Assembly (NCBI RefSeq): GCF_009741275.1 | Contig: NZ_WOWS01000001.1 | Coordinates: 1 to 64,000, forward strand | Direction of reading: 5' to 3' | Length of the DNA stretch: 64,000 bases | Source: Winogradskyella endarachnes | GTDB lineage: Bacteria > Bacteroidota > Bacteroidia > Flavobacteriales > Flavobacteriaceae | Part shown: one piece after another, positions 47,804-61,884 of the stretch | Layout: each line of letters begins with the position of its first letter | Position numbering within the stretch: the first letter of the stretch is position 1 | The notes under the pieces: generated by a model | What the model was told of the DNA's origin: nothing | The model's database searches: none | What the model saw: only the letters and a program-made list of their open reading frames with translations | Translations under genes and position numbers: made by a program

Positions 47804-48715
47804 TTAATTTATCTGAGAATTGATATATGTAACTATATCTTTAAAATCTGTTTTAAAATCGAACCATTCAATTGTTTCATCTTTTCTAAACCAGGTTAGT
47901 TGTCTTTTTGCAAAACGTCTGGTGTTTTTCTTAATTTCTGAAATGGCAAAATTTAAGGTCCAATCACCTTCAAAATATTTAAATAGTTCTTTGTAACCAA
48001 CTGTATTAAGCGCGTTAAGATGCTTATAAGGTATAAGAGACTTTACTTCATCTAACAACCCGTTATCCATCATTAAATCTACCCGCTGATTAATTCTGTC
48101 ATAGATTATAGAACGTTCAGCATTAAGACCAATACTAATTGTTTTAAACTCTCTATTTTTTTCAGGATTAGTAAGAAAAGAAGAGTATGGTTTACCAGTG
48201 CCAATACAAATTTCTAATGCTCTTATAACGCGTTGCGGATTGTCTATTGCAATTGTATTGTAAGTTTCTGAATCTAAGTCTTTAAGCTTGTTTTGTAACT
48301 TGGTTAATCCGTTATTTTCTAATTCTTCATTTAGTTGTGTTCTTATTTCGTCATCAACTGCTGGGAAATAATCTAAACCTTTAGTAACGGCTTTAACATA
48401 TAAACCAGAGCCACCAACCATTATGGCTATAGGATTTTTTTTATGTAGTTGTTTAAGTTCTGAAATGGCATCTCGTTCAAAATCACCGACGTTATAATAA
48501 TCTTCAATAGATTTATTTTGAATAAAATGATGTGGTGCAGCATTTAATTCTTCTTTAAACGGTACAGCTGTACCAATAGACATTTCTTTATAAAACTGAC
48601 GAGAATCTGCTGAAATTATTTCGGTATTAAAATGTTGAGCAAGTTTTATACTCAATGCCGTTTTACCAATTGCTGTAGGACCAACAATAGAAATGAGAAT
48701 TTTTTTATTAATCAT
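47804..48715 (-). CDS. miaA: tRNA dimethylallyltransferase MiaA
   Basis: MiaA adds a dimethylallyl group to A37 of tRNAs that read codons starting with U. The 303-residue protein has the P-loop IVGPTAIGKTALSIKLA, EIISADSRQFYKEMSIGTA, HHFIQNKSIEDYYNVGDFE, MVGGSGLYVKAVTKGLD, NPQRVIRALEI and the end TRRFAKRQLTWFRKDE. I chose ATG 48715: the longer frame to 48757 lies in the upstream ion-channel gene. It overlaps that gene by 8 bases. Confidence 0.97.
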   Translation of the reverse strand: MINKKILISIVGPTAIGKTALSIKLAQHFNTEIISADSRQFYKEMSIGTAVPFKEELNAAPHHFIQNKSIEDYYNVGDFERDAISELKQLHKKNPIAIMVGGSGLYVKAVTKGLDYFPAVDDEIRTQLNEELENNGLTKLQNKLKDLDSETYNTIAIDNPQRVIRALEICIGTGKPYSSFLTNPEKNREFKTISIGLNAERSIIYDRINQRVDLMMDNGLLDEVKSLIPYKHLNALNTVGYKELFKYFEGDWTLNFAISEIKKNTRRFAKRQLTWFRKDETIEWFDFKTDFKDIVTYINSQIN

Positions 48716-49583
48716 GATGCATTTTATGTCCACAATTATGACAATACTCGGCACCATCTTGATGCGTAGTGTTTAAACAATTAATACAACACTGAGAATT
48801 AAGATGTAATTTTTGTTCTGTTGAATAAGACTCATTATTGTTATTACTTTCATTAGATTTAGAACTGCTTTTTGCGTATTCTGCAGATACAATGCCTGTT
48901 GGAACTGCAATAATACCATAACCTAAAATCATAATAATAGTAGTAATAAATTGTCCTAAAGGTGTTTGCGGTGCGATATCGCCAAAGCCTACCGTGGTAA
49001 GTGTTACAATACACCAATAAACACTTTTAGGAATATTTGTAAAGCCATTAGCTTCGCCTTCTACTAAATACATAATGGTACCAAACACAACAGATGAAAC
49101 CATAACAGCAAATAAGAAGACTAAAATTTTTACACGACTCGCAATAATAGAATCTTTTAACTGGTTAGACGCACCTAAATAGCGCGCTAACTTTAAAATT
49201 CTAAAAACTCTAAGCAATCTCAATGCTCGCAAAGTAACTAACGCTTGGGCACCACCAAAAAAGAAAGTGAGATACATTGGTATGGTAGAAAGAAAATCAA
49301 TAACACCAAAAAAACTAAATAGATATTTAAATGGTTTTTTTACAGTAATGATTCGTAATATAAATTCTATTGAAAATAAGATGGTAACAATCCATTCACA
49401 GAAATAAAGAAAATCATGATATTTATTATCAATGCTAGAAACGCTTTCGAGCATTACTAAAACAATACTTATTAAAATGAAAAATAAAAGTAAGACATCA
49501 AATAATTTTCCTGAAGGTGTATCTGCTTCATAGATTATTTCATGGAGTTTAGTTTTCCAGTTATGTTTTTGATTTGATTCCAA
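48708..49583 (-). CDS. Voltage-gated-type potassium channel with zinc-ribbon tail
   Basis: The 291-residue protein has six membrane helices. An S4-like helix carries regularly spaced arginines (VTLRALRLLRVFRILKLARY, about residues 118-137), and the selectivity filter is LTTVGFGDIAP (about residue 195), as in Kv-type potassium channels. After the last helix lies a soluble tail with two Cys pairs, CCINC and CHNCG, that should bind zinc. It overlaps miaA by 8 bases. Ion selectivity for K+ is inferred from the filter. Confidence 0.9.
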   Translation of the reverse strand: MESNQKHNWKTKLHEIIYEADTPSGKLFDVLLLFFILISIVLVMLESVSSIDNKYHDFLYFCEWIVTILFSIEFILRIITVKKPFKYLFSFFGVIDFLSTIPMYLTFFFGGAQALVTLRALRLLRVFRILKLARYLGASNQLKDSIIASRVKILVFLFAVMVSSVVFGTIMYLVEGEANGFTNIPKSVYWCIVTLTTVGFGDIAPQTPLGQFITTIIMILGYGIIAVPTGIVSAEYAKSSSKSNESNNNNESYSTEQKLHLNSQCCINCLNTTHQDGAEYCHNCGHKMHHD

Positions 49584-49607: not shown

Positions 49608-51554
49608 TTATTGTTTTTCTAATACAATAACGGAGTTGTTTTGAAGCTCTACTACTTTATCCATAAACAGTTTTAAATAAGGATAATAATCTGGTGCATA
49701 GATAGGTAAATTAAACTTAACTTTAAAATAAACAATTATCGTATTATCTTTTTGTTCTAAATTAAAAATAACACTACCTGCGCTATTTGGTAAAGAGTAG
49801 TTGATTTTTTCTGGGATTTCTAGTATTTTAAATCCCTCATCTATTTTAATTTGCATATTGTAACTATAGATATCTTTATATCCAAAATCAATAGGATATG
49901 ATCGTTCTTGTAATTTAAAAGGATTTTCTTCAAAGAACTTAATTATAAATGGATTTAAGTAAATCTTATCTCCAATAAACTCTGGCTCTATAGTTATATT
50001 GTAGGTTTCTGAAAAATTAGATTTACTGGTTTTAAAATCTATGACTTCATGATCTTCAATAGTAATTTCGGTTAAATCATTTATTTTATCGTTTAAATAA
50101 CTTGTAGGGTTTTCATCATAGTCTTGTTTTGGCTGATGAGAATGATAGCCAGTATATCTGCTTTGCACTCTCCCTGTAAACTCATTGTCTAAAGACGAAT
50201 TTATTTCTACTCTATGGGTTTGGCTAGAGTACGGTTTAACCTCAATATCTTCCCAATAACTACCAATTTCAAAGTCTATTAGTCGTCCATATTGATTAAG
50301 TGCTCTAAAGGGTAGTTCTCCAAAGGTATGATACTTATTTGTTGCATCTATAAAGTAATTTTTCTGATCTATTGTTGTTTTTAAAATGAGGTAATTAAAG
50401 TCTGTAAGAACAGGATAAATTTTGGTGGCAAAGCCATTTCCTCTTGTAGACATTAAAACCGGAAAGGTCTCAATTCCTTGGCTAGTAAGTAAGTTTTCTA
50501 ATAACATATTAATTTCAAATACACTGCCTACTTTTTCTTTTATTAAATTTTTTACAGAAACATCATAGCGTTCAGTTTTCCTATTCCAAATGTAGTTGTC
50601 TAAAACAAATTGATAAATAGCTTTTGCTTTTTTTAGTTGATCTGTAATAGAAGTTATAGACATTGGTAATACATCTTTTACAAGGCTATTTTTACTTAAT
50701 TGTTTACCGAAATCTGGGTCAACTTTTAATTCTTTATCAGCATCTTTCCAAGTTTTGGTTATTTTATCAATTCTACCATCAAAGCCATTAAAAACACTTA
50801 ATTCATATTCTATTCTAGAGGTGTAATTAAGAGAAGTGGTTGTATAATCTTCGGGTTTATATGCAGGTATATTTTCCATTACATATTTAGAAACACCACA
50901 ATCTGCACTTGCGCCACGACCTGTTTCTAAACAATGTTTCTCTAAACTCGTTTTGTGATCTGTAAACGGAATACTTCCTACCAATTTGATATGATAGATA
51001 TAATTACCAGGAATACTAGTATTATATTCACTGTATAAAACAGGATCTTGCCCCTGAAAATACCATGGTTGGTATTTTGCCATAAAACGTGATTGCTTTT
51101 CATAACTAACAGTGATAATACTGCCTACTTTTACATTTGGTAAAACAAACTTAACACGTGTAAATTTTTCATTTTCTTCTCTAAAAACGGCTTTTTCTGT
51201 TAAATGGGTTTTTACAATTTTACCATTTTCTAAATTGTATGTTGTGCCCTTTATGTCTTCAATTTTTTCTTCAGTAGATTTTCCTTTGTAAAGGATAATT
51301 TCAAATTCACCTCTGTCAATACCTTCGGGTTTCAATATTTTTATTTTTTGCTTAAACTGAGAATTTAACCAAAATGTTTTTTTGTTTACAAAGCTATTTC
51401 CATAGTCGTAAATTACCAAAGCATTGGCTGTAGAATCTTTAGAATACGTTGTTGCTTGGAGTTCACTTTTTCTAATTAACATATCTGCTACGTAGCTTTG
51501 TGAAAAACTAAAAAATGAACTAATTAAAGCTATAATTAGTATATGGTGTTTCAT
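49608..51554 (-). CDS. DUF3857 domain-containing exported protein
   Basis: The 648-residue protein has a signal peptide (about 1-18, SFFSFSQ), a DUF3857 N-terminal beta-domain (about 50-240; FEIILYKGKSTEEK and VRFKLPN-like KFVLPNVKVGSIITVSYEKQ), and then a transglutaminase-like region (about 270-400; AIYQFVLDNYIWNRKTERYD and NMLLENLLTSQGIETFPVLM). The catalytic Cys usual in transglutaminases is not evident, so it may be inactive as an enzyme. It is a Bacteroidota periplasmic protein of unknown role. Its start shares one base with the stop of the exonuclease gene. Confidence 0.85.
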   Translation of the reverse strand: MKHHILIIALISSFFSFSQSYVADMLIRKSELQATTYSKDSTANALVIYDYGNSFVNKKTFWLNSQFKQKIKILKPEGIDRGEFEIILYKGKSTEEKIEDIKGTTYNLENGKIVKTHLTEKAVFREENEKFTRVKFVLPNVKVGSIITVSYEKQSRFMAKYQPWYFQGQDPVLYSEYNTSIPGNYIYHIKLVGSIPFTDHKTSLEKHCLETGRGASADCGVSKYVMENIPAYKPEDYTTTSLNYTSRIEYELSVFNGFDGRIDKITKTWKDADKELKVDPDFGKQLSKNSLVKDVLPMSITSITDQLKKAKAIYQFVLDNYIWNRKTERYDVSVKNLIKEKVGSVFEINMLLENLLTSQGIETFPVLMSTRGNGFATKIYPVLTDFNYLILKTTIDQKNYFIDATNKYHTFGELPFRALNQYGRLIDFEIGSYWEDIEVKPYSSQTHRVEINSSLDNEFTGRVQSRYTGYHSHQPKQDYDENPTSYLNDKINDLTEITIEDHEVIDFKTSKSNFSETYNITIEPEFIGDKIYLNPFIIKFFEENPFKLQERSYPIDFGYKDIYSYNMQIKIDEGFKILEIPEKINYSLPNSAGSVIFNLEQKDNTIIVYFKVKFNLPIYAPDYYPYLKLFMDKVVELQNNSVIVLEKQ

Positions 51555-52924
51555 TAGTTTTTATATAAATCGATTACTTTTAAACGTTTATTTCTTCTAA
51601 GATAACTTTGAATAATATGTTGAGAATCTCTATCATTTTGCATTGGTGTAATAACAGATTTTAAAATTTTGCTATTATTTATTTGAAGGTTTAGGTTAAA
51701 GTATCCCATACCTTTAAAAATCCCATTTTCAATTAAGAATACTACCTTTTCGCTTATTTCTCTTCCTTTATCTATAATAAGCATGTTTTTATTATCGTAA
51801 CTATATTTATCCTTTAGCTGCTCTATACGTTTGTTATAGTCTTCGGCAGACTCTTTGTTAATGCATGCACCTTCACATTCTTTAACTTCATATTTAAAGC
51901 AACTAGTTTTGGTATTATATAAACCTGTAAGTTTTTGGCATAAATTATAATCTTCAACCGCTTTAAACAAAAAATGTTTACCACTAGCTCTGGTTGTAAA
52001 CGTGGTAATTGGTGCATCGTCGCGGTCCGATTTATCTATTTGTAAATTAATATAACCTTTACTATCTGTAAAAGCATACAGTGCATGTGTAAAAATACTT
52101 CTACGCAAAGCTCTATTAAAAATAGGCTTATTCTTTTTTATTTCTGCGCTTTCTTTAAGTAATGCAGCCAATTCGCTTCCCGTTTTTTCATAAGTTACTG
52201 TACTCACTAACTTCTGAATTTTCTTAGATTTAGAATTAGTTCCAGTAAAATGCTGAATAATCCGTTTTCTTATATTCTTGCTCTTACCAATATATATAAT
52301 TTCACCATCTGCATTATGTATGTAATAAACACCTGTGTCTGATGGCATTTCATCTACTATATTGTTAAGATTTGGAGCCATTTTAGATTTCTGTTCTATT
52401 TTAACAGCATCTTTAATTATAGTTTTGTCCAAATCTTTGTTCAACAACATTTTAAATAGCTTTACAGTAGCTAAAGCATCACCACTTGCTCTATGTCTAT
52501 CACTCATTGGTATACCAAGAGCCTTTGTTAATTTACCCAAACTGTAAGATTCCATATCAGGAATCAATTGTTTAGATAATTCAACCGTACAAATGGTTTT
52601 CCGTTTGTATGTAAAGCCTAAACGTTTAAATTCGGTTTTAAGAATTCTATAGTCAAAAGCAGAATTATGAGCGACTATAATACAATCTTCTGTAATTTCT
52701 ACAATACGTTTGGCAACTTCGTAAAATTTAGGCGCATTTCTAAGCATATTAGAATTTATGCCAGTAAGATTAACCACAAAAGGTTGAATTTCGCGTTGCG
52801 GATTAATTAAAGAAATAAATTGGTCTGTTATTTCATGACCATTATAACGATAAATCGCAATTTCTGTGATACCTTCTTCATTGAACTTTCCACCAGTGGT
52901 TTCTATGTCTACAATTGCGTATAT
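51554..52924 (-). CDS. DnaQ-like exonuclease fused to a GIY-YIG nuclease domain, apparent ATA start
   Basis: The gene encodes about 456 residues. The N-terminal DEDDh exonuclease domain has YAIVDIETTGGKFNEEG (Asp6, Glu8), AHNSAFDYRIL and RHRASGDALAT. After a linker comes a GIY-YIG domain (TGVYYIHNADGEIIYIGKS) with a UvrC-like part that follows. Homologues start MYAIVDIETTGG; here the matching first codon is ATA (52922-52924), and the frame has a stop 10 codons upstream with no ATG, GTG or TTG between. The next normal start (GTG 52777) would remove the first catalytic motif. Either ATA serves as start or the gene is damaged at its start. It likely acts in DNA repair or proofreading. Confidence 0.8.
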   Translation of the reverse strand: MYAIVDIETTGGKFNEEGITEIAIYRYNGHEITDQFISLINPQREIQPFVVNLTGINSNMLRNAPKFYEVAKRIVEITEDCIIVAHNSAFDYRILKTEFKRLGFTYKRKTICTVELSKQLIPDMESYSLGKLTKALGIPMSDRHRASGDALATVKLFKMLLNKDLDKTIIKDAVKIEQKSKMAPNLNNIVDEMPSDTGVYYIHNADGEIIYIGKSKNIRKRIIQHFTGTNSKSKKIQKLVSTVTYEKTGSELAALLKESAEIKKNKPIFNRALRRSIFTHALYAFTDSKGYINLQIDKSDRDDAPITTFTTRASGKHFLFKAVEDYNLCQKLTGLYNTKTSCFKYEVKECEGACINKESAEDYNKRIEQLKDKYSYDNKNMLIIDKGREISEKVVFLIENGIFKGMGYFNLNLQINNSKILKSVITPMQNDRDSQHIIQSYLRRNKRLKVIDLYKN

Positions 52925-52982
52925 AGTGTTAGGGTATTTGGAGTTTTTAAGTTAGTTGTATGTACTGAAACTATAATAGCAA

Positions 52983-53645
52983 CTAAATATTGTAATTTCT
53001 TACACCAAATATACTACTTCCTACGCGAATCATAGTACTTCCGCAGTTAATTGCTAACTGATAATCTCCACTCATTCCCATGCTTTTAATTTTTAAATCT
53101 GGATTGAAGTTTTTAAGGTCTGAAAACGTGTTGTTTAGAAATTTAAATTCTTGTTCAACCTGTTTCATATTATCGGTAAAAGTGGCCATTCCCATTAGGC
53201 CAACAACTTTTATGTTTTTTAATTCTGAAAATTCCTCAGATTGAAGTAACTGAGAAGCATCATTTACAGACATCCCAAATTTGCTATCTTCTTCAGCAAT
53301 TTTAATTTGAAGTAAACAATCTATGGTTCTATCGTATTTTTTGGCTTGTTTGTTTATTTCTTTTAATAGTTTAAAACTGTCTACACCATGTATTAAATTT
53401 ACAAACTCAGCCATATATTTAACTTTATTTCGCTGCACATGACCAATCATATGCCACTCAATATCTTTGGGCATTTCTGCATGTTTGTCTGCCATTTCTT
53501 GAATTTTGTTTTCTCCAAAAATACGCTGACCAGCATTGTAGGCTTCCATTAGGTCTGAAACAGGTTTTGTTTTAGAAACAGCAACCAAGGTTACATGTTC
53601 TGGAATGGTTGATTTTATTTGCTGAAGGTTTTGTTCTATGCTCAT
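52983..53645 (-). CDS. YggS family PLP-binding protein
   Basis: The 220-residue protein has the PLP-binding Lys25 in VAVSKTKPVSD, then GENKIQEMADKH, WHMIGHVQRNKVKYMAEFV, VVGLMGMATFTDN and the late phosphate-binding region SMGMSGDYQLAINCGSTMIRVG. YggS proteins keep pyridoxal phosphate balanced in the cell and have no known catalytic reaction. I chose ATG 53645; a longer frame to 53726 would enter the upstream gene. It lies 55 bases after DUF1015. Confidence 0.95.
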   Translation of the reverse strand: MSIEQNLQQIKSTIPEHVTLVAVSKTKPVSDLMEAYNAGQRIFGENKIQEMADKHAEMPKDIEWHMIGHVQRNKVKYMAEFVNLIHGVDSFKLLKEINKQAKKYDRTIDCLLQIKIAEEDSKFGMSVNDASQLLQSEEFSELKNIKVVGLMGMATFTDNMKQVEQEFKFLNNTFSDLKNFNPDLKIKSMGMSGDYQLAINCGSTMIRVGSSIFGVRNYNI

Positions 53646-53700
53646 TAATCTGCTTGCTTTTATTTTAACGCTGTTTAAAGATTTAGAAATGCAAAAGTAT

Positions 53701-54939
53701 TTAATACTCATAAATAGTAATAGCACTTCGTAATTTAGGTAAAATATAAGTACTTTTTGGTGGCATGGTTAAACCTTCGTCTGCAATTTGTTTCATTTGT
53801 TCAACATTTGAAGGACACATACCAAAACCAACTTTAAATTCGCCACTATCTACGCTACTTTTAATGGTAATCATTTCGTGTTTACCGTTAACATAAGAAA
53901 TCCGATTATTTTGTCGTAAATCTTCAATGCCCAAAATAGGTTGCAATATAGTTTTGTACAATAATTGTGCATCTAATTCATCTAATGCTGTTTTAAAGTC
54001 GTAGCTTGTTTTTCTTAAATATAATGAATAAAATTCGCCATCTAAATACATACTAAAATGATGTGGTTTTGATGGGTTATAAGGCATTATGCCTCTGTTT
54101 TCAATACGATAAAAAGTATCTAGCTTTATTAAAAATTCTTCTTTTGTTAAACCGTTTAAATCTTTGATGAGTCTATTAAATTCGTGAATTACTAAATCCG
54201 ATTCCGGAATTAAATAAGACATAAAATAGTTGTAAGACTCGCTACCATTATGGTTTGGGTTTTTCGCCTTTTCATCTTTATAAAGTAAATAAGAGGATGA
54301 CGATCTATGATGGCCATCTGCAATATAAACCGTATCCATTTTACTAAATTCTGTTTGAATTGTAGCAATGGTTTCTTCATCATCTACTTTCCATAAATAA
54401 TGTGTGTCTCTATAGGTCATAGTAAACTCAAATTCCGCATACGTTTTTTGAGTTTCAGTTATTATATCAGCAATAACGCAATTATCAGGATAGGTAAGTA
54501 GCACAGGTTCTGCATTAAAACCTACAGTTTGTAAATATTTTTTAAAGGTTTCTTCGCGTTTTGCTATGGTGTCTTCGTGTTTTTTAATGAAGTTTTTTTC
54601 ATAATCCTCGGCACTTGTTGCAGCAATGATGCCACAAAATTCTTGACCTTGTCTATTTACAATTTTATAAACATAGAAAGAAGGCTTTTCATCTTGTACA
54701 AAAACACCATCTTCCTTAAATTCTAAATATCTATTTCTTACAAGTTTATAGCGTTCTTCGCCAGTTACTTCTTGGGCATATTTATAACCAGGATTTATAA
54801 CATGAAGAAAACTATATGGATTATAAGCCATACGAGATTCGCGTTCATCTAAAGTATAACTTTGATAAGGTCGTGAGGCCACAAGACCAACAATAGCTCT
54901 GGTTGGTTTTACAGCTTTAAACGGAATAATATTTACCAC
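53701..54939 (-). CDS. DUF1015 domain-containing protein
   Basis: The 412-residue cytoplasmic protein begins IIPFKAVKPTRAIVGLVASR and has the family stretches YNPYSFLHVINPG, YIADGHHRSSSSYLLY, MSYLIPESDLVIHEFNRL, and the end FGMCPSNVEQMKQIADEG followed by PPKSTYILPKLRS. The start is GTG at 54939. The GHHR motif is strongly conserved but the function is unknown. It is the third gene of the hydroxyacyl-CoA dehydrogenase, M23, DUF1015, yggS series and begins 1 base after the M23 stop. Confidence 0.92.
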   Translation of the reverse strand: MVNIIPFKAVKPTRAIVGLVASRPYQSYTLDERESRMAYNPYSFLHVINPGYKYAQEVTGEERYKLVRNRYLEFKEDGVFVQDEKPSFYVYKIVNRQGQEFCGIIAATSAEDYEKNFIKKHEDTIAKREETFKKYLQTVGFNAEPVLLTYPDNCVIADIITETQKTYAEFEFTMTYRDTHYLWKVDDEETIATIQTEFSKMDTVYIADGHHRSSSSYLLYKDEKAKNPNHNGSESYNYFMSYLIPESDLVIHEFNRLIKDLNGLTKEEFLIKLDTFYRIENRGIMPYNPSKPHHFSMYLDGEFYSLYLRKTSYDFKTALDELDAQLLYKTILQPILGIEDLRQNNRISYVNGKHEMITIKSSVDSGEFKVGFGMCPSNVEQMKQIADEGLTMPPKSTYILPKLRSAITIYEY

Positions 54940-54940
54940 T

Positions 54941-55585
54941 CTAGTTTCTGTTTTTATTAATAAATTCGGTAGGATTTAAATAACCAGTAGTATCCTTAGA
55001 ATAACCTCCTCCAATATCTAAATCTACGTCATTTCTAATTTCAAAATGAAGGTGTGCAAAATATGTACCGTTACAATTACCTATTGTTGCAATTTGTTCT
55101 CCTTTTTTAATAAGTCTATCTGATTTTACTAGAATAGAGTCGCAATGCGCATAAAGAGATTCGTATAATTTATTATTATGTAAATGAACTATTCTTACTA
55201 CATTTCCCCAACCTCCTTTATAGTCTTTAGCTTCACTTATATATCCATTTGCTATGGCATAAATTGGGTCGCCTAAATCTGAATTTCCACCACCAACACC
55301 ATTCCAATCGTCGCCTAAATGGTTGTTTTCTTGAAACTTTTGAGCGTTATAATAACCACTTCCATTGGGTTTACCAACAGGGAAATCAAAACCATTTGAT
55401 ATGAAAGAAGAATCCTTTTCTATTAGTGATTTATAATCTTTCTGTAAATCGATTTCTGATGTTAAATCATTAAGTTCCTCTGAGACATTGACATCAATAT
55501 AGCTATTTGGTGTATTGCTCGTTTTATTATTACAAGAAATAAGTAAAATGTAGAAAAGACAGTATATTATTTGATATTTTATCAT
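54941..55585 (-). CDS. M23 family metallopeptidase, lipoprotein
   Basis: The 214-residue protein has a lipoprotein signal (FYILLISCNNK, Cys at about residue 17) and an M23 (LytM) domain with the zinc ligands in NHLGDDWNG (His-x3-Asp) and FAHLHFEIR. The Gly-rich stretch GVGGGNSDLGDPIYAIANG is typical. It probably cuts peptide cross-links in peptidoglycan from the outer membrane side. I chose ATG 55585; a TTG two codons earlier is less likely. A six-copy heptamer repeat lies just upstream. Confidence 0.92.
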   Translation of the reverse strand: MIKYQIIYCLFYILLISCNNKTSNTPNSYIDVNVSEELNDLTSEIDLQKDYKSLIEKDSSFISNGFDFPVGKPNGSGYYNAQKFQENNHLGDDWNGVGGGNSDLGDPIYAIANGYISEAKDYKGGWGNVVRIVHLHNNKLYESLYAHCDSILVKSDRLIKKGEQIATIGNCNGTYFAHLHFEIRNDVDLDIGGGYSKDTTGYLNPTEFINKNRN

Positions 55586-55644: not shown

Positions 55645-56535
55645 TTACTTTATAAACTGCGTCGCAATTTTCTCAGCCTTTCGACTTTCAGAATAATCGT
55701 AAAAACCTTCTCCGGATTTTACACCTAATTTTCCAGCCATAACCATATTAACAAGTAGAGGGCAAGGTGCATATTTAGGATTCTTGAAACCATCATACAT
55801 CACATTTAAAATAGATAAACAAACATCTAAACCAATAAAATCGGCCAACTGTAATGGACCCATTGGATGTGCCATTCCTAATTTAATAACCGTATCAATT
55901 TCTGCAACACCAGCAACGCCATTGTATAAGGTTTCAATAGATTCGTTAATCATAGGCATTAAAATACGGTTAGCTACAAAGCCAGGATAATCGTTAACCT
56001 CAGTTGGTACTTTACCTAAAGTTTTAGACAGATTCATTATAGTAGAAGTTACATCATTACTTGTACTGTACCCTCTAATGATTTCTACTAATTTCATAAT
56101 TGGTACAGGATTCATAAAGTGCATACCAATAACTTTTTCTGGTCTAGAGGTTGCTGCTGCAATTTGTGTAATAGAAATTGAAGATGTGTTTGTAGCGAGA
56201 ATAGTGTTTTCAGCACAAATAGCGTCTAGTTGCTTAAAAATCTTAAGTTTTAAATCTAGGTTTTCGGTTGCCGCTTCAACGACTAAGTCTACATTTTTTA
56301 CACCATCTTCAGTAGTGGTAAATGTAGAAATGTTTCCTAAAGTTTCAGTTTTTTCAACTTCAGTAATCTTTTCTTTGGCGACCATTCTATCTAAATTTCT
56401 AGAAATGGTATCCATGCCTCGTTTTAAAGACGCTTCACTAATATCTATAAGTTGAACATTAAATCCTGATTGTGCAAATGTGTGTGCAATGCCATTTCCC
56501 ATGGTTCCTGCACCTATAACTGCTATGTTTTTCAT
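55645..56535 (-). CDS. 3-hydroxybutyryl-CoA / 3-hydroxyacyl-CoA dehydrogenase
   Basis: The enzyme oxidises 3-hydroxyacyl-CoA with NAD+ in fatty-acid or butanoate metabolism. The 296-residue protein has the Rossmann start NIAVIGAGTMGNGIAHTFAQ, the region ATNTSSISITQIAAAT, VIGMHFMNPVPIMKLVEII (with the catalytic His) and GFVANRILMPMINESIE, then GPLQLADFIGLDV. I chose ATG 56535. An upstream in-frame extension to 56583 (MLSAVEVGRLGWAFLIM) is the translation of a repeat element, not family sequence. Confidence 0.95.
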   Translation of the reverse strand: MKNIAVIGAGTMGNGIAHTFAQSGFNVQLIDISEASLKRGMDTISRNLDRMVAKEKITEVEKTETLGNISTFTTTEDGVKNVDLVVEAATENLDLKLKIFKQLDAICAENTILATNTSSISITQIAAATSRPEKVIGMHFMNPVPIMKLVEIIRGYSTSNDVTSTIMNLSKTLGKVPTEVNDYPGFVANRILMPMINESIETLYNGVAGVAEIDTVIKLGMAHPMGPLQLADFIGLDVCLSILNVMYDGFKNPKYAPCPLLVNMVMAGKLGVKSGEGFYDYSESRKAEKIATQFIK

Positions 56536-56545
56536 AATTAAAAAA

Positions 56546-56612
56546 GCCCATCCTAACCTTCCTACTTCGACTGCGCTCAGCACAAGCTTTAGGAAGGAAC
56601 TCTTACTTGGGC
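56546..56612. repeat. Nested inverted-repeat element with a Bacteroidota dispersed motif
   Basis: Outer arms GCCCA (56546-56550) and TGGGC (56608-56612) enclose inner arms CCTTCCTA (56557-56564) and TAGGAAGG (56590-56597). In the loop lies CTTCGACTGCGCTCAGCAC (56565-56583), a motif I recall as scattered between genes of many Bacteroidota. Its G+C content is well above the surroundings. Confidence 0.7.
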
Positions 56613-56634
56613 GGAATAAGAAAAGCCACTTTAA

Positions 56635-56649
56635 TTCCCCAAAGGGGAA
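56635..56649. repeat. Short palindrome TTCCCC-AAA-GGGGAA
   Basis: A perfect 6-bp inverted repeat with an AAA loop lies 22 bases from the nested repeat element. Such TTCCCC/GGGGAA hairpins accompany the dispersed repeats of flavobacteria. It also lies after the oxidoreductase stop and may work as a weak terminator on the minus strand. Confidence 0.6.
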
Positions 56650-56748
56650 AACTGAAGCGTTTATGTTAATACTAATTTTATGGTTTCAAATTTAATTTCT
56701 AGCCGTAACCGTTTTCACTTGCTTATTGAAAGGGCTAGAGATGGACTA

Positions 56749-57708
56749 TTAAAACTGATTAATAATCATGTTAGCCACACGCAAAGCCTCAGTGCCATCG
56801 TGCAATGTTACAATAGGTTTAGTGTTGTTACTAATAGCATCTGCAAAAGTTTCTAACTCATCTAAAATAGCGTTGTTATTGGCTATTTCTGGATTGTCAA
56901 AGTAGATTTGTTTTTTTACGCCTTCTGCATTCTGTAGTATCATATCAAAATCGCCAGGATTATCTGGTGCATCTTTCATTTTAACAACTTCACATTTTTT
57001 TTCTAAAAAGTCTACAGAGATGTAAGCATCTTTTTGAAAGAAACGCGTTTTACGCATATTTTTTAATGAAATTCTACTTGCTGTAAGATTGGCAACACAG
57101 CCATTTTTAAATTCAATACGAGCATTGGCAATATCTGGTGTTTCACTTACTACAGAAACTCCACTAGCAGAAATATGCTTTACAGGCGATTGTACAACAG
57201 AAAGAATGATATCAATATCATGAATCATTAAATCTAAAACTACAGGCACATCTGTACCACGAGGGTTAAACTCGGCCAATCTGTGACACTCAATAAACAT
57301 TGGGTTGTTAATTTGGTCTTTTACACCAATAAAAGCAGGATTAAAACGCTCTACATGACCCACTTGTCCTTTAACACCATGTTCTGCAACTAACGTCCTA
57401 ATAGTTTCAGCCTCTTCAACAGTATTGGTTATTGGCTTTTCAATAAAAATATGTTTACCTTTTTTAATGGCTTGTTTAGCACAATCATAGTGAGAAAGGG
57501 TAGGTGTAACAATATCTACAACATCTACAGCTTCAATTAAATCGTCTATAGAATCATAGTATGTATAACCAAATTCTTCAACAACACGTTTTGCGTTTTC
57601 TGGATCTGCATCGTAAAAACCGACTAGATCATATTTATTAGATTGGTTAAGTAACCTTAAATGAATTTTACCAAGGTGTCCAGCACCAAGAACTCCAGCT
57701 TTTAGCAT
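56749..57708 (-). CDS. Gfo/Idh/MocA family oxidoreductase
   Basis: The 319-residue protein has an N-terminal NAD(P) fold (AGVLGAGHLGKIHLRLL), the conserved EKPITN motif in HIFIEKPITNTVEEAE, and GQVGHVERFNPAF. Further on, MIHDIDIILSVVQSP carries the usual His and Asp of the active site, and VANLTASRISLKNMR follows. The family acts on sugars, inositol or related compounds; the substrate is unknown. I chose ATG 57708; a TTG at 57726 overlaps the -7 element. It leads the minus-strand series that continues to miaA. Confidence 0.9.
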   Translation of the reverse strand: MLKAGVLGAGHLGKIHLRLLNQSNKYDLVGFYDADPENAKRVVEEFGYTYYDSIDDLIEAVDVVDIVTPTLSHYDCAKQAIKKGKHIFIEKPITNTVEEAETIRTLVAEHGVKGQVGHVERFNPAFIGVKDQINNPMFIECHRLAEFNPRGTDVPVVLDLMIHDIDIILSVVQSPVKHISASGVSVVSETPDIANARIEFKNGCVANLTASRISLKNMRKTRFFQKDAYISVDFLEKKCEVVKMKDAPDNPGDFDMILQNAEGVKKQIYFDNPEIANNNAILDELETFADAISNNTKPIVTLHDGTEALRVANMIINQF

Positions 57709-58018
57709 ATTATCAATTTTTACCAAAAATAAATGTTTTCGATTAGAAATTGAAAAAAGAAAATATAAAATAATGCGAAATTCATAAGGCTTTTAATTAT
57801 TGGAAATTCAAAATATTTATGTTTTCAATATTCAATTTTAATTGACTTTAATTTTGAATTAAAATGAAGTGATTCTAATAATTTAAAACTCAGTTTGTAA
57901 TCTAAAATGTACTACAGTGATTATAGACTTTTATGCACTATGATTGAAAAAATCTGGAACTTTCAATTTGAAAATTGTAATATTTTGAAGTATTTTTACC
58001 TTAAACTAAACTACGCTT
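57709..58018. other. 310-base A+T-rich divergent intergenic region
   Basis: The region separates the oxidoreductase gene (minus) from pcm (plus). Besides the -7 element at 57724-57731 it holds a loose A+T inverted repeat (ATTCAA at 57830-57835 and TTGAAT at 57854-57859). I see no open frame, RNA gene or repeat in it. Confidence 0.5.
57724..57731 (-). promoter_or_regulatory. -7 promoter element of the oxidoreductase gene
   Basis: The minus strand reads TATTTTTG, a perfect TAnnTTTG match 15 bases before the ATG at 57708. Confidence 0.5.
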
Positions 58019-58660
58019 TTGAAAGATACATTTAAGCATCAAGGAATGCGCCAACAACTTGTTGATACGCTTGTAAAAAAAGGAATTAAAGACCAAAACG
58101 TCTTAAAGGCAATAAATAAAATTCCTAGACATTTGTTTATGGATTCTGGCTTTATAGACCATGCTTACCAAGATAAAGCATTTCCTATTGCTGCTGACCA
58201 AACGATTTCACAACCTTATACTGTAGCATTTCAATCTGAATTATTACAAGTAAAACCAGGCGATAAAGTTTTAGAAATTGGTACTGGTAGTGGTTACCAA
58301 ACCGCTGTGCTTTTAGAACTTGGCGCAAAAGTTTATAGTATAGAGCGACAGCAAGAATTGTTTAAAAAAACCTCTAAATTTTTGCCTAAAATAGGATATC
58401 GTGCTAGAAAACTAATTTTTGGTGACGGTTATAAAGGTCTGTTAGATGAGGCACCTTTTCAAAGTATTATTGTAACAGCTGGTGCACCTTATGTTCCTAA
58501 TCCATTACTTAGTCAGTTAGCCGTTGGAGGACGTTTGGTAATCCCAGTTGGTGAAGATGTGCAAGTAATGACTATGTTTATAAGAAAAGGTTCTAAAGAA
58601 TTTGAAAAACACGAATTTGGTGATTTTAGATTTGTTCCAATGTTAGAGGATAAGAATTAA
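58019..58660 (+). CDS. pcm: Protein-L-isoaspartate O-methyltransferase
   Basis: PCM methylates damaged isoaspartyl residues so that they can revert. The 213-residue protein has IPRHLFMDSGFIDHAYQDKA, the conserved TISQPYTVAFQSELLQ, the SAM-binding VLEIGTGSGYQTAVLLE, FGDGYKGLLDEAPF and IIVTAGAPYVPNPLL. The start is TTG at 58019, since homologues begin with KDTFKHQG and no ATG precedes it. Length is normal. It stands alone on the plus strand. Confidence 0.96.
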   Translation: MKDTFKHQGMRQQLVDTLVKKGIKDQNVLKAINKIPRHLFMDSGFIDHAYQDKAFPIAADQTISQPYTVAFQSELLQVKPGDKVLEIGTGSGYQTAVLLELGAKVYSIERQQELFKKTSKFLPKIGYRARKLIFGDGYKGLLDEAPFQSIIVTAGAPYVPNPLLSQLAVGGRLVIPVGEDVQVMTMFIRKGSKEFEKHEFGDFRFVPMLEDKN

Positions 58661-59211: not shown

Positions 59212-61677
59212 TTAAAAGAATTTTAAACCAAATACAACCGCATCACTTATAAATCCGCTTTGGTAAGATCGTAAATAATCGACTCTTAAGAAACGCCATT
59301 TTCCCCAGCCAATATTATCTAATCCAATAGAATATTCTTGATAAGGTTTAAAATCTGGCTGTGCTAAGACGTGTGCCCCAACTACTAAATTAAAATTTAG
59401 TTTGTTTAATAAAGGTACTTTTCCGAGTATAAAGCCATTAAAATCGTGTTCTGCATGTGCTTCAAAATAAGAATCGTTTGTACTTGCGCCATAATAATCT
59501 AAATTATTAAATACATTGGTGTAATTACCTTCTGTACTCACATGCGTAAGGTTGCCATTAAAGTGCTGGTAGTCTACAAAAGCGATGTCTTCTCCATTAA
59601 AGAATTTTCCGGCTTTTAGATTGTAGTTAAATCTACCTTTATCTTTTACGTTGAAAGATTGTGTTAAACGTATTTTAATTTGGTCAAAATTATAGGCACT
59701 GTTGGTGGCTCCAAATCCTTTTTCGTACCCTAAATACAAAGTAGGGTAATTATCGTTACCAATATTGTATTTAGCATCTGGATAACTCATGTATTCTTGT
59801 CCAAAGTTAATTCGCGCGTTTATGGTTCCTTTTAAAATATTATGGGTTTGGAATGGTTCAATGCCATAGGCCAATTCATTTAACGGATTATTACTTGTGT
59901 AAGCATCATTATCATCATTAATGTAAACTTGGTCTGAAGTATTAAACAATGCTTTTCGTCTTTGATAACTTATGCCTGCATATAATCTAAAACCGTTAAA
60001 AAGTTCTTCTGAATAGTTTAAAGATAAGTGGCTTTTATCATATAACTTCATATAATTATCTTCAAAAAACAAAGAACTCACACCATTTATTAAGGGTGTA
60101 ATTGGGTTTGAAGGATTAAATTGAGATGTAATTACACCTCCTGATAATGTTAAAAAAGGGTAGGAGGTATTATTAAATTTGTATGTAATTGCGCCTGTAG
60201 CACGCAATCTATCATCTGAAAATCCGTATTGTAAATCGCCATTAACACTTATGTACCTGTTATAGTCATCAAACCCTTTTGTGTAGAAAACATTTGCACC
60301 AATGGTGTATCCTTGAACCGTATTAAATTGTGTTGAAGTAGGAGGAATGTTAAATCCTAATCGATAATTTTTATATGAATTTTGATAGGTATAACCTAAA
60401 ATGTTTCCGAGTTTAAATTTGTTTTTTACAGCATCAATAGAGTCTAAATAAGGTTTAGATTCTCTTACTATTTGTATACTGTCTTTGGTGATGTAATCTG
60501 TACGTTCTTCTAATGTTAATGGAACAGGTCTAATTTTGTTCCAGAAAATTGAATCCTTTTTGTTGGCTTCATCTTCAAAAGACACAATTTCTTTATTAAA
60601 ATCTTTTCTTGTTAACGAGGTATTGAACTCGTAATTACTGTAAACTGCCGTAAAACGTCCATCGCCTTTAATGCCAAATAAACCATACTTAAAATCGATA
60701 CTTTGAGATATTCTCGCCCAAATATCATCGCTTTCAGAATACGAGAAACTTTGTTGTAAAGAAATCACATCTACAGCCGGAATCCTTGCTTGTATGCCTG
60801 TAATATCTAACTCTAAAGCATAAATATCCCATTGATTTTCTACAATATAAATAAAGCCTGAAAAAACAGGGTCGTTTTTACGTTTTGGTGTTACTTTAAT
60901 CTTGTTAATGAGGTTGCCTCTGTTATCATAGAAAACACCATCTAGTTTGTATTTGTAGTAACTAAAGGCGTTGTTGGCAATTGGAGATATAATTTCGTTT
61001 CCAAAATTAATGGTGTTATTATAAAAATTAAAGTCAACTTCTAATGCTGTGTTAAAGCTAAATCCATTACTGTTTCCGCTAATTTTTGAAGCAGAAATTC
61101 GTTCTTTAAGTTTATCTGGACTTAAAAACTGAATTTTAGAAATGGTTTCAGATAAATAGATAATGCCACTTCTTGTAGAATCTAATCCGCCTCCTAAATC
61201 GCCAACTTCTTGACCCATTATTTTCTCTGGAGCATCTTTAATTTTAATTAAACCTCTAGAGTAGAAGTCGGCTTTAAAAGATTCAATTTTATCGAGATTA
61301 GCTTGTCGTTGTGCCATAGCTTGCCGCATTATAGCATTGGCAGGATCGTTAGTGGCATCTACCAAAACTTCGCCTAGAGAAACAGATTCTTCTTCTAAGA
61401 CAATATCTAATTGATATGGAAATTTAGAAATTGACACCGATTTTTTAACCGTCTTATAACCCAAATAACTATATATAATTACATAGTCTTTGGGTTGTGA
61501 GATGTTGAGTTCGTAATAACCATCGTCATTACTTGTTGTCCCTTTGTATGTATTTTCTATTAAAATATTTACAAAAGGTAATGGATTATTGTTTTGGTCT
61601 GTGATGTTTCCGGTGATTTGTGCCGAAATTGAAGAACTGATCGCGATTAGAAAGATGAAGAGTAGTTTTTTTTGCAT
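59212..61677 (-). CDS. DUF5686 outer-membrane protein with carboxypeptidase-like regulatory domain
   Basis: The 821-residue protein has a signal peptide (about 1-19), a carboxypeptidase-regulatory-like domain (about 20-105; GNITDQNNNPLPFVNILIE and YNIS-type sheet) and the long DUF5686 region (about 115-821), which reads as an outer-membrane beta-barrel with many alternating aromatic strands and ends in FGLKFF. A conserved stretch is MRQAMAQRQANLDKIESF. It lacks a plug domain, so it is not a TonB receptor. The role is unknown. Confidence 0.88.
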   Translation of the reverse strand: MQKKLLFIFLIAISSSISAQITGNITDQNNNPLPFVNILIENTYKGTTSNDDGYYELNISQPKDYVIIYSYLGYKTVKKSVSISKFPYQLDIVLEEESVSLGEVLVDATNDPANAIMRQAMAQRQANLDKIESFKADFYSRGLIKIKDAPEKIMGQEVGDLGGGLDSTRSGIIYLSETISKIQFLSPDKLKERISASKISGNSNGFSFNTALEVDFNFYNNTINFGNEIISPIANNAFSYYKYKLDGVFYDNRGNLINKIKVTPKRKNDPVFSGFIYIVENQWDIYALELDITGIQARIPAVDVISLQQSFSYSESDDIWARISQSIDFKYGLFGIKGDGRFTAVYSNYEFNTSLTRKDFNKEIVSFEDEANKKDSIFWNKIRPVPLTLEERTDYITKDSIQIVRESKPYLDSIDAVKNKFKLGNILGYTYQNSYKNYRLGFNIPPTSTQFNTVQGYTIGANVFYTKGFDDYNRYISVNGDLQYGFSDDRLRATGAITYKFNNTSYPFLTLSGGVITSQFNPSNPITPLINGVSSLFFEDNYMKLYDKSHLSLNYSEELFNGFRLYAGISYQRRKALFNTSDQVYINDDNDAYTSNNPLNELAYGIEPFQTHNILKGTINARINFGQEYMSYPDAKYNIGNDNYPTLYLGYEKGFGATNSAYNFDQIKIRLTQSFNVKDKGRFNYNLKAGKFFNGEDIAFVDYQHFNGNLTHVSTEGNYTNVFNNLDYYGASTNDSYFEAHAEHDFNGFILGKVPLLNKLNFNLVVGAHVLAQPDFKPYQEYSIGLDNIGWGKWRFLRVDYLRSYQSGFISDAVVFGLKFF

Positions 61678-61884
61678 AAACTAATTGATTGATGATTAGG
61701 TAATGGTTTTAAGATTGATTTTACATCACAAACTTTGTGCCTTTTATAATTAAAGACGTTATTATATTAAAAAAGGTTGCTTTAATTGTAAAATTTTATA
61801 TGCTGTCTTCAAACTTAGGCTAATAAATAAAACGAAAAAGTTATAGGAATCTTAAAGTTATTTAAATAAATGAAAATAAAGAGG

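Follow-up and report, generated by a model that had tools for sequence, protein, structure and literature searches.

The window analyzed here, 64,000 nucleotides from the genome of the marine bacterium Winogradskyella endarachnes, carries on its minus strand a gene for a nuclease in which an exonuclease domain is followed by a GIY-YIG endonuclease domain (Table 1). In the window sequence, an in-frame TAA (52954-52952) is followed by nine codons (CTT AAA AAC TCC AAA TAC CCT AAC ACT) and then by ATA (52924-52922), 3' of which come TAC GCA ATT GTA GAC ATA GAA ACC ACT GGT GGA (YAIVDIETTGG). Between this TAA and the GTG at 52777-52775, the first in-frame canonical start and 49 codons past the ATA, there is no in-frame ATG, GTG, or TTG. 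The first-pass annotation had described a frame open from this GTG up to the ATA that encodes the first catalytic motif, with no ATG, GTG, or TTG between the upstream stop and the motif, and the window sequence bears out both statements. At the other end of the gene, the nuclease stop overlaps the start of the next gene, and this downstream gene may therefore be translationally coupled to the presumably weakly initiated nuclease.

Table 1. Features of the nuclease locus (coordinates in the window)
Feature	Position	Strand	Basis
Putative full CDS, 456 amino acids plus stop, DEDDh exonuclease-GIY-YIG endonuclease fusion	51554-52924	-	Frame, profiles, dN/dS
Predicted ATA start codon (near-cognate)	52922-52924	-	Window sequence and orthologue comparison
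Codons 2 to 9, synonymous sites strongly conserved in the genus	52898-52921	-	Genus comparison
DEDDh exonuclease domain (Pfam RNase_T, residues 4 to 157), first motif DIE at codons 6 to 8	52454-52915	-	
GIY-YIG endonuclease domain (residues 198 to 267)	52124-52333	-	Pfam
First in-frame canonical start (GTG); initiation here would lose the motif I Asp and Glu	52775-52777	-	Sequence, Pfam
In-frame TAA stop on the 5' side, separated from the ATA by nine codons	52952-52954	-	Sequence
Stretch of 58 nt separating the upstream gene (52983-53726) from the ATA, with no motif resembling a Shine-Dalgarno site	52925-52982	-	Sequence
TAATG, in which the nuclease stop and the ATG that starts the following gene overlap	51552-51556	-	Sequence

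The 456-amino-acid protein matched RNase_T (6e-32) and GIY-YIG (8e-10), both above the Pfam cut-off, and beyond residue 267, where a UvrB-binding or a Cho-type domain would be sought, no Pfam domain was found at an E value of 0.001. Translated from the ATA, it covered positions 2 to 164 of the RNase_T profile; translated from the GTG, it covered positions 54 to 164 and was deprived of positions 2 to 53 and, with them, of the motif I Asp and Glu, as had been foreseen in the warning that an annotation starting at 52777 would lose the active site. Proteins of the Cho+Exo and Cho-like+Exo types have been found in Actinobacteria and Betaproteobacteria (PMC1564403), and a role in the repair of damaged DNA has been proposed for Exo-GIY-YIG relatives (cited in PMC1564403). 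Their domain order is identical to that of the nuclease described here, which differs in falling below the cut-offs of the NCBIfam exonuclease/GIY-YIG fusion models (best score of 261 bits versus 495); the passages of PMC1564403 that deal with these proteins do not discuss their start codons. A paralogue in the same genome (G000:C1:260097-261461), 39% identical to the nuclease, starts with ATG-ATG, and two other loci (L182 and L183) have ATC or ATA as the second codon, behind a normal ATG.

To compare the start codon among relatives, 68 genomes of the genus were sampled, and the orthologous column could be read in 66 of them (two, G040 and G049, gave no orthologue match). All 66 had a near-cognate codon there, ATT in 42, ATA in 15, and ATC in 9, and none had ATG, GTG, TTG, or CTG. 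A check of sister strains, as the first-pass annotation had suggested, therefore gave a near-cognate codon in every genus genome read, with ATA itself in 15 of them. These counts include one genome with a frameshift further on (G026) and one in which the gene is cut by a contig end (G051), both left out of the tree and of the dN/dS estimates; in the former, the gene with the frameshift still starts with ATT. Among named Winogradskyella loci, which overlap with the genus genomes, the 31 of 32 that reach the start had only ATA, ATT, or ATC.

In other genera of the family, the column was read in 148 genomes drawn from 297 searched, taken by similarity rank together with 30 weaker matches, so that percentages derived from them are biased. 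Here we found TTG (51 genomes), ATT (50), ATG (32), ATC (7), GTG (6), and two other codons, AAC or TTA, each with a TTG directly upstream. An AUH codon (AUA, AUU, or AUC) was therefore present in 57 of the 148; counted by genus, 48 of 132 sampled genera had AUH, 32 had AUG, and none had both. The assertion that homologues have ATG at this position holds only for more distant relatives (32 of 148 sampled, all from other genera) and not for close ones (0 of 66). The ATG of these distant relatives falls in the same column as the nuclease ATA, which identifies the column as the start, and the presence of TTG, ATG, or GTG there in other genera means that the isoleucine codons of Winogradskyella are best read as starts rather than as internal isoleucines. 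In Epilithonimonas, Chryseobacterium, and related homologues, a mini-ORF made only of a start and a stop (ATG-TAG) lay immediately before the start ATG in 11 of 20 loci (L063, L066, L068-L075, and L078 among L062-L081).

The codons that follow the ATA show the signature of a translated protein. In 64 of the 66 genus genomes, with 400 random pairs drawn and 146 to 334 usable per region, dN/dS was 0.033 for codons 2 to 50 and 0.036 for the rest of the exonuclease domain, rising to 0.074 and 0.098 in later regions of the gene. Such strong purifying selection on codons 2 to 50 indicates that they are translated. The most constrained stretch of the whole gene was codons 2 to 13. Within codons 2 to 9, conservation extended to synonymous sites, with GAC at codon 6 and ATA at codon 7 in 66/66 genomes and TAC in 64/66. 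We considered whether this early conservation marks a special element and rejected the idea, since the value for the nuclease (0.80), like that of infC (0.90), is comparable to those of some neighbors with canonical starts (0.77 for 56752-57792 and 0.71 for 58010-58657; 0.50 for 55648-56685).

As a control, we aligned the 20-kb regions around the nuclease gene from 20 genomes of the same genus and the window. Seven neighbor genes had ATG at the start column in every aligned row (six of them, including the upstream gene, in 21/21 and the downstream gene in 15/15), which indicates that the near-cognate start of the nuclease is not a product of chance. The first conserved column of the nuclease in this alignment held ATA in 10 rows, ATT in 7, and ATC in 4, and the column richest in canonical starts was an internal ATG (21/21) located 59 columns after it. 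These seven genes form the cleaner control. Other neighbors gave a less tidy picture, in part because their start columns had been chosen automatically; the choice is uncertain for 47807-48772, 53704-54975, and 58010-58657, and 59215-61680 gave no clear start column (ATG in 6 of 17 rows and gaps in 11).

A wider screen set 400 kb of the genome of the window against the same length from each of two relatives. It required that an ORF match at least one of the two and that eight or more conserved residues precede any canonical start, settings that can miss cases. After removal of overlaps, 5 of 226 orthologous ORFs were flagged for residues conserved ahead of the first canonical start (before it, 21 of 240 ORFs were flagged, many apparently antisense), and on inspection the nuclease was the only one of the 226 for which every genome compared lacked a canonical start. 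Three of the other flagged ORFs (226958, 80825, and 199511) had a shared ATG just downstream. The fourth, G000:C1:88570-89022, on the same contig but outside the window, had ATT where its nearest relatives have ATG, an apparent start change in one genome; this ATT (G000:C1:88612-88614; L358 and L444) belongs to a lipoprotein-like ORF, with ATG in L445 (79%), L446 (75%), and others.

Shine-Dalgarno-like motifs (GGAG, AGGA, or GAGG at positions -20 to -4) were scarce upstream of the start column, appearing in 1 of the 66 genus genomes (L149), 3 of the 57 other AUH members, 3 of the 51 UUG members, and 6 of the 32 AUG members. This is expected, because the phylum Bacteroidota has been reported not to use Shine-Dalgarno pairing (PMC6847099). 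Adenine was frequent in the upstream sequence, with a frequency of 0.55 at -3 (where T had only 0.03), 0.67 at -5, and 0.59 to 0.71 at -10 to -14 (0.71 at -12 and 0.67 at -13), against a mean of 0.39; in Flavobacterium johnsoniae, attention has been drawn to positions -3, -6, -12, and -13 (PMC6847099). The ATG starts of the seven neighbors had a similar A-rich stretch (0.52 at -3, 0.81 at -10, and 0.75 at -11 in 141 sequences), so the context of the nuclease is that of an ordinary start, with nothing special about it. Predicted secondary structure was slightly more open near the start (0.56 to 0.59 unpaired from -25 to +19, compared with 0.39 to 0.54 elsewhere and 0.60 at +185 to +199), and we set it aside as evidence.

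We reconstructed a gene tree with 212 of 214 sequences. Its largest clade without AUG or GUG comprised 159 genomes from 79 genera, with ATT in 88, TTG in 40, ATC in 16, and ATA in 15, and within it the four codons replaced one another at least 46 times, or at least 26 times if only changes between AUH and UUG are counted. Within Winogradskyella, AUA, AUU, and AUC were interchanged at least 15 to 16 times. A weak start is not universal, though: a wider clade, spanning all AUH members but one (L319), also included 6 AUG and 5 GUG members, and one reconstruction contained three changes from UUG to AUG. Only 8.4% of fourfold third positions are G, which makes the absence of ATG among the changes between AUA, AUU, and AUC weak evidence if taken alone. 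The raw counts of GAC at codon 6 (66/66 in the genus, 56/57 for AUH elsewhere, and 46/51 for UUG, versus 8/32 for AUG) had hinted at an association with weak starts, which failed a tree-aware test of independent pairs (six pairs, the second trait differing in about one), and shared ancestry suffices to explain them.

The gene of initiation factor IF3, infC, offers a second near-cognate start in the same cells. It started with ATA in all 30 genus loci read (from 30 of 64 matching genus genomes) and in all 27 family loci read, including that of the genome of the window (30 loci were fetched from 59 matching genomes, three of which, L419, L435, and L440, were not parsed). The infC ATA (L434 in G000:C54, L274-L303, and L414-L443) had GCC or GTC before it in most cases and GCA AT(A/T) after it. 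With ATA in every locus read, these cells seem to initiate at AUA regularly. In three genomes (G079, G121, and G094), the nuclease starts with ATG and infC still with ATA, so the nuclease start varies independently. Near-cognate infC starts are known elsewhere, ATT in Escherichia coli and ATC in Streptomyces (PMC5472188) and AUA in Staphylococcus aureus (PMC13009471), and IF3 has been shown to destabilize initiation on such codons in infC and in sigR, whose start is GTC (PMC5472188). The likeness between both genes lies in the near-cognate start; they differ in that infC had ATA in all loci read while the nuclease codon varies (ATA, ATT, ATC, or TTG). They also differ in product: the nuclease is not IF3, so any effect of IF3 on it would not be autoregulation. 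The remark of the first-pass annotation that rare starts are usually tied to autoregulation need not apply to this gene, for which, if IF3 discriminates against the codon, control would be exerted by IF3 and not by the nuclease itself.

Three explanations in which the ATA does not serve as a start were weighed against these data. Damage to the gene by a single base change had been proposed as the alternative to an ATA start, and a sequencing error could likewise have removed an ATG; ATA is indeed one base away from ATG, and the lipoprotein-like ORF of the same genome does have ATT where the nearest relatives have ATG. However, an intact frame, a near-cognate codon in 66/66 genomes of the genus, and the low dN/dS of codons 2 to 50 leave this explanation with practically no probability, and we regard it as ruled out by the genus comparison. 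A shorter protein without motif I, starting at the GTG at 52777 or at a later ATG, would begin at the first canonical starts in frame, one of which a gene finder limited to ATG, GTG, and TTG would pick. Against it, the column where canonical starts are most numerous in the 21-genome alignment is an internal ATG 59 columns past the ATA column, and the 49 codons before the GTG are constrained like the rest of the exonuclease domain and supply RNase_T positions 2 to 53; this constraint rules out the GTG start for practical purposes, and the whole alternative is very improbable.

Equally improbable is that ribosomes arrive from the upstream gene by frameshifting or stop readthrough and read the codon as an internal isoleucine. 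All three codons of the genus do encode isoleucine, and the upstream gene is close, with a gap of 8 to 99 nt (median of 58) in the 60 of 66 genomes where its end was recognized. Against it, this gap varies widely; in 33 of the 66 genomes, the start codon is preceded by an in-frame stop at a distance of at most four codons (directly adjoining it in one), and the TTG, ATG, or GTG found in the same column in other genera fits a start and not an isoleucine. In addition, in 47/66 there was no canonical start within 150 nt in any frame open to the codon. Frameshifting and readthrough are thus unsupported, whereas termination followed by reinitiation at the AUH codon itself is compatible with a start at this codon.

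The first of the two options of the first-pass annotation, that ATA is used to start translation, is the one supported by the AUH codons in all readable genus genomes, the protein-level selection on the codons after it, and the ATA of infC in the genus. Counting against it, 5/66 genus genomes do have an ATG, GTG, or TTG in frame upstream of the codon; 61/66 have none. From these comparisons, it is very likely that an AUH codon is the nuclease start. To the reading as a whole, i.e., an intact gene that starts at the ATA at 52924-52922 and whose product is kept scarce through a weak start, IF3 discrimination, and selection, we assign a probability of about 0.6. Translation would start at this ATA with the initiator tRNA. 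Since the initiator anticodon has only a near-cognate match in AUA, AUU, and AUC, most of the initiation complexes would be rejected by IF3, and the nuclease output would be low and would rise when IF3 becomes limiting. Selection would keep the start within a weak set (AUA, AUU, or AUC, with UUG as a further option in sister genera) and would bar AUG from one large clade, probably because an enzyme with two DNA-cutting domains is harmful in excess. In place of Shine-Dalgarno pairing, the site would be found through the A-rich upstream context and the constrained early codons. Selection for a weak start is probable on the comparative evidence, and for control through IF3, suggested by analogy with infC and sigR, we see about even odds.

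The explanation that competes with this selective one accepts the start itself: the AUH codon would be used, the weak start being simply tolerated because little depends on the amount of nuclease, and control by IF3 would not have been selected. The free swapping of AUA, AUU, and AUC within the genus, the repeated alternation with UUG in the 159-genome clade, and the AUG or GUG of some lineages outside this clade speak for a neutral start. However, AUG and GUG are missing from 159 genomes in 79 genera, even though AUG is one step away from each AUH codon, and the seven neighbor genes checked keep ATG in every row. We therefore hold neutrality to be rather unlikely and favor selection for a weak nuclease start.

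Conserved near-cognate starts outside infC are already known (sigR, ccpN, cvfC1, rnhC, and pcnB). In E. coli, pcnB encodes an enzyme kept scarce by its AUU start; it is a different gene, from a different phylum, than the nuclease. The sigR gene of Streptomyces, with a GTC start repressed by IF3, is a case outside infC of a product kept scarce by a rare start (PMC5472188). It differs in having an extended Shine-Dalgarno sequence (AGGAGGTG) and experimental proof (PMC5472188), while the nuclease start is known from sequence and has a Shine-Dalgarno-like motif in only 1/66 genomes. In S. aureus, ccpN (AUA) and cvfC1 (AUU) have conserved near-cognate starts that limit translation and can be likened to that of the nuclease; in reporters, AUA and AUU reached ca. 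10% of AUG in poor medium, and ccpN up to 30% in rich medium (PMC13009471). These genes belong to unrelated families and have extended Shine-Dalgarno motifs at their sites, while the bacteria carrying the nuclease are reported to lack Shine-Dalgarno use. The rnhC gene of Listeria has an ATC start (PMC13068326). The nuclease fits this class of conserved near-cognate starts, with a codon conserved among relatives, a canonical start mostly absent, and a translated downstream sequence. A compensating Shine-Dalgarno motif, which sigR, ccpN, and cvfC1 have and which does not define the class, was found in only 1/66 genus and 3/57 other AUH members. What sets the nuclease apart from sigR, ccpN, and cvfC1 is the lack of a compensating Shine-Dalgarno site, the spread over tens of genera, and the free movement among AUA, AUU, AUC, and UUG. 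In a search of open-access literature, we found no prior report of a near-cognate start for the nuclease or of an infC ATA in Flavobacteriaceae.

Characterized near-cognate starts are few, and those of sigR, ccpN, and cvfC1 lean on strong Shine-Dalgarno sequences (PMC5472188 and PMC13009471). The nuclease and infC appear to use such starts in a family reported to lack this pairing and so provide a natural test of how such ribosomes choose a start. On the practical side, a gene finder limited to ATG, GTG, and TTG would strip the active site from the nuclease of many species. A large clade in which AUA, AUU, AUC, and UUG replace one another and AUG is absent is also a ready comparative set for the study of selection for weak initiation. 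Tentatively, and at less than even odds, we propose that across this large Flavobacteriaceae clade (159 genomes, 79 genera sampled) selection may hold the nuclease start within the weakest codons that can still be used (AUA, AUU, AUC, and UUG), never AUG, and that near-cognate starts, including that of infC, may be recognized by context alone, with no help from Shine-Dalgarno pairing. If this is true, DNA repair capacity would be tied throughout the clade to IF3 and to how faithfully translation is initiated.
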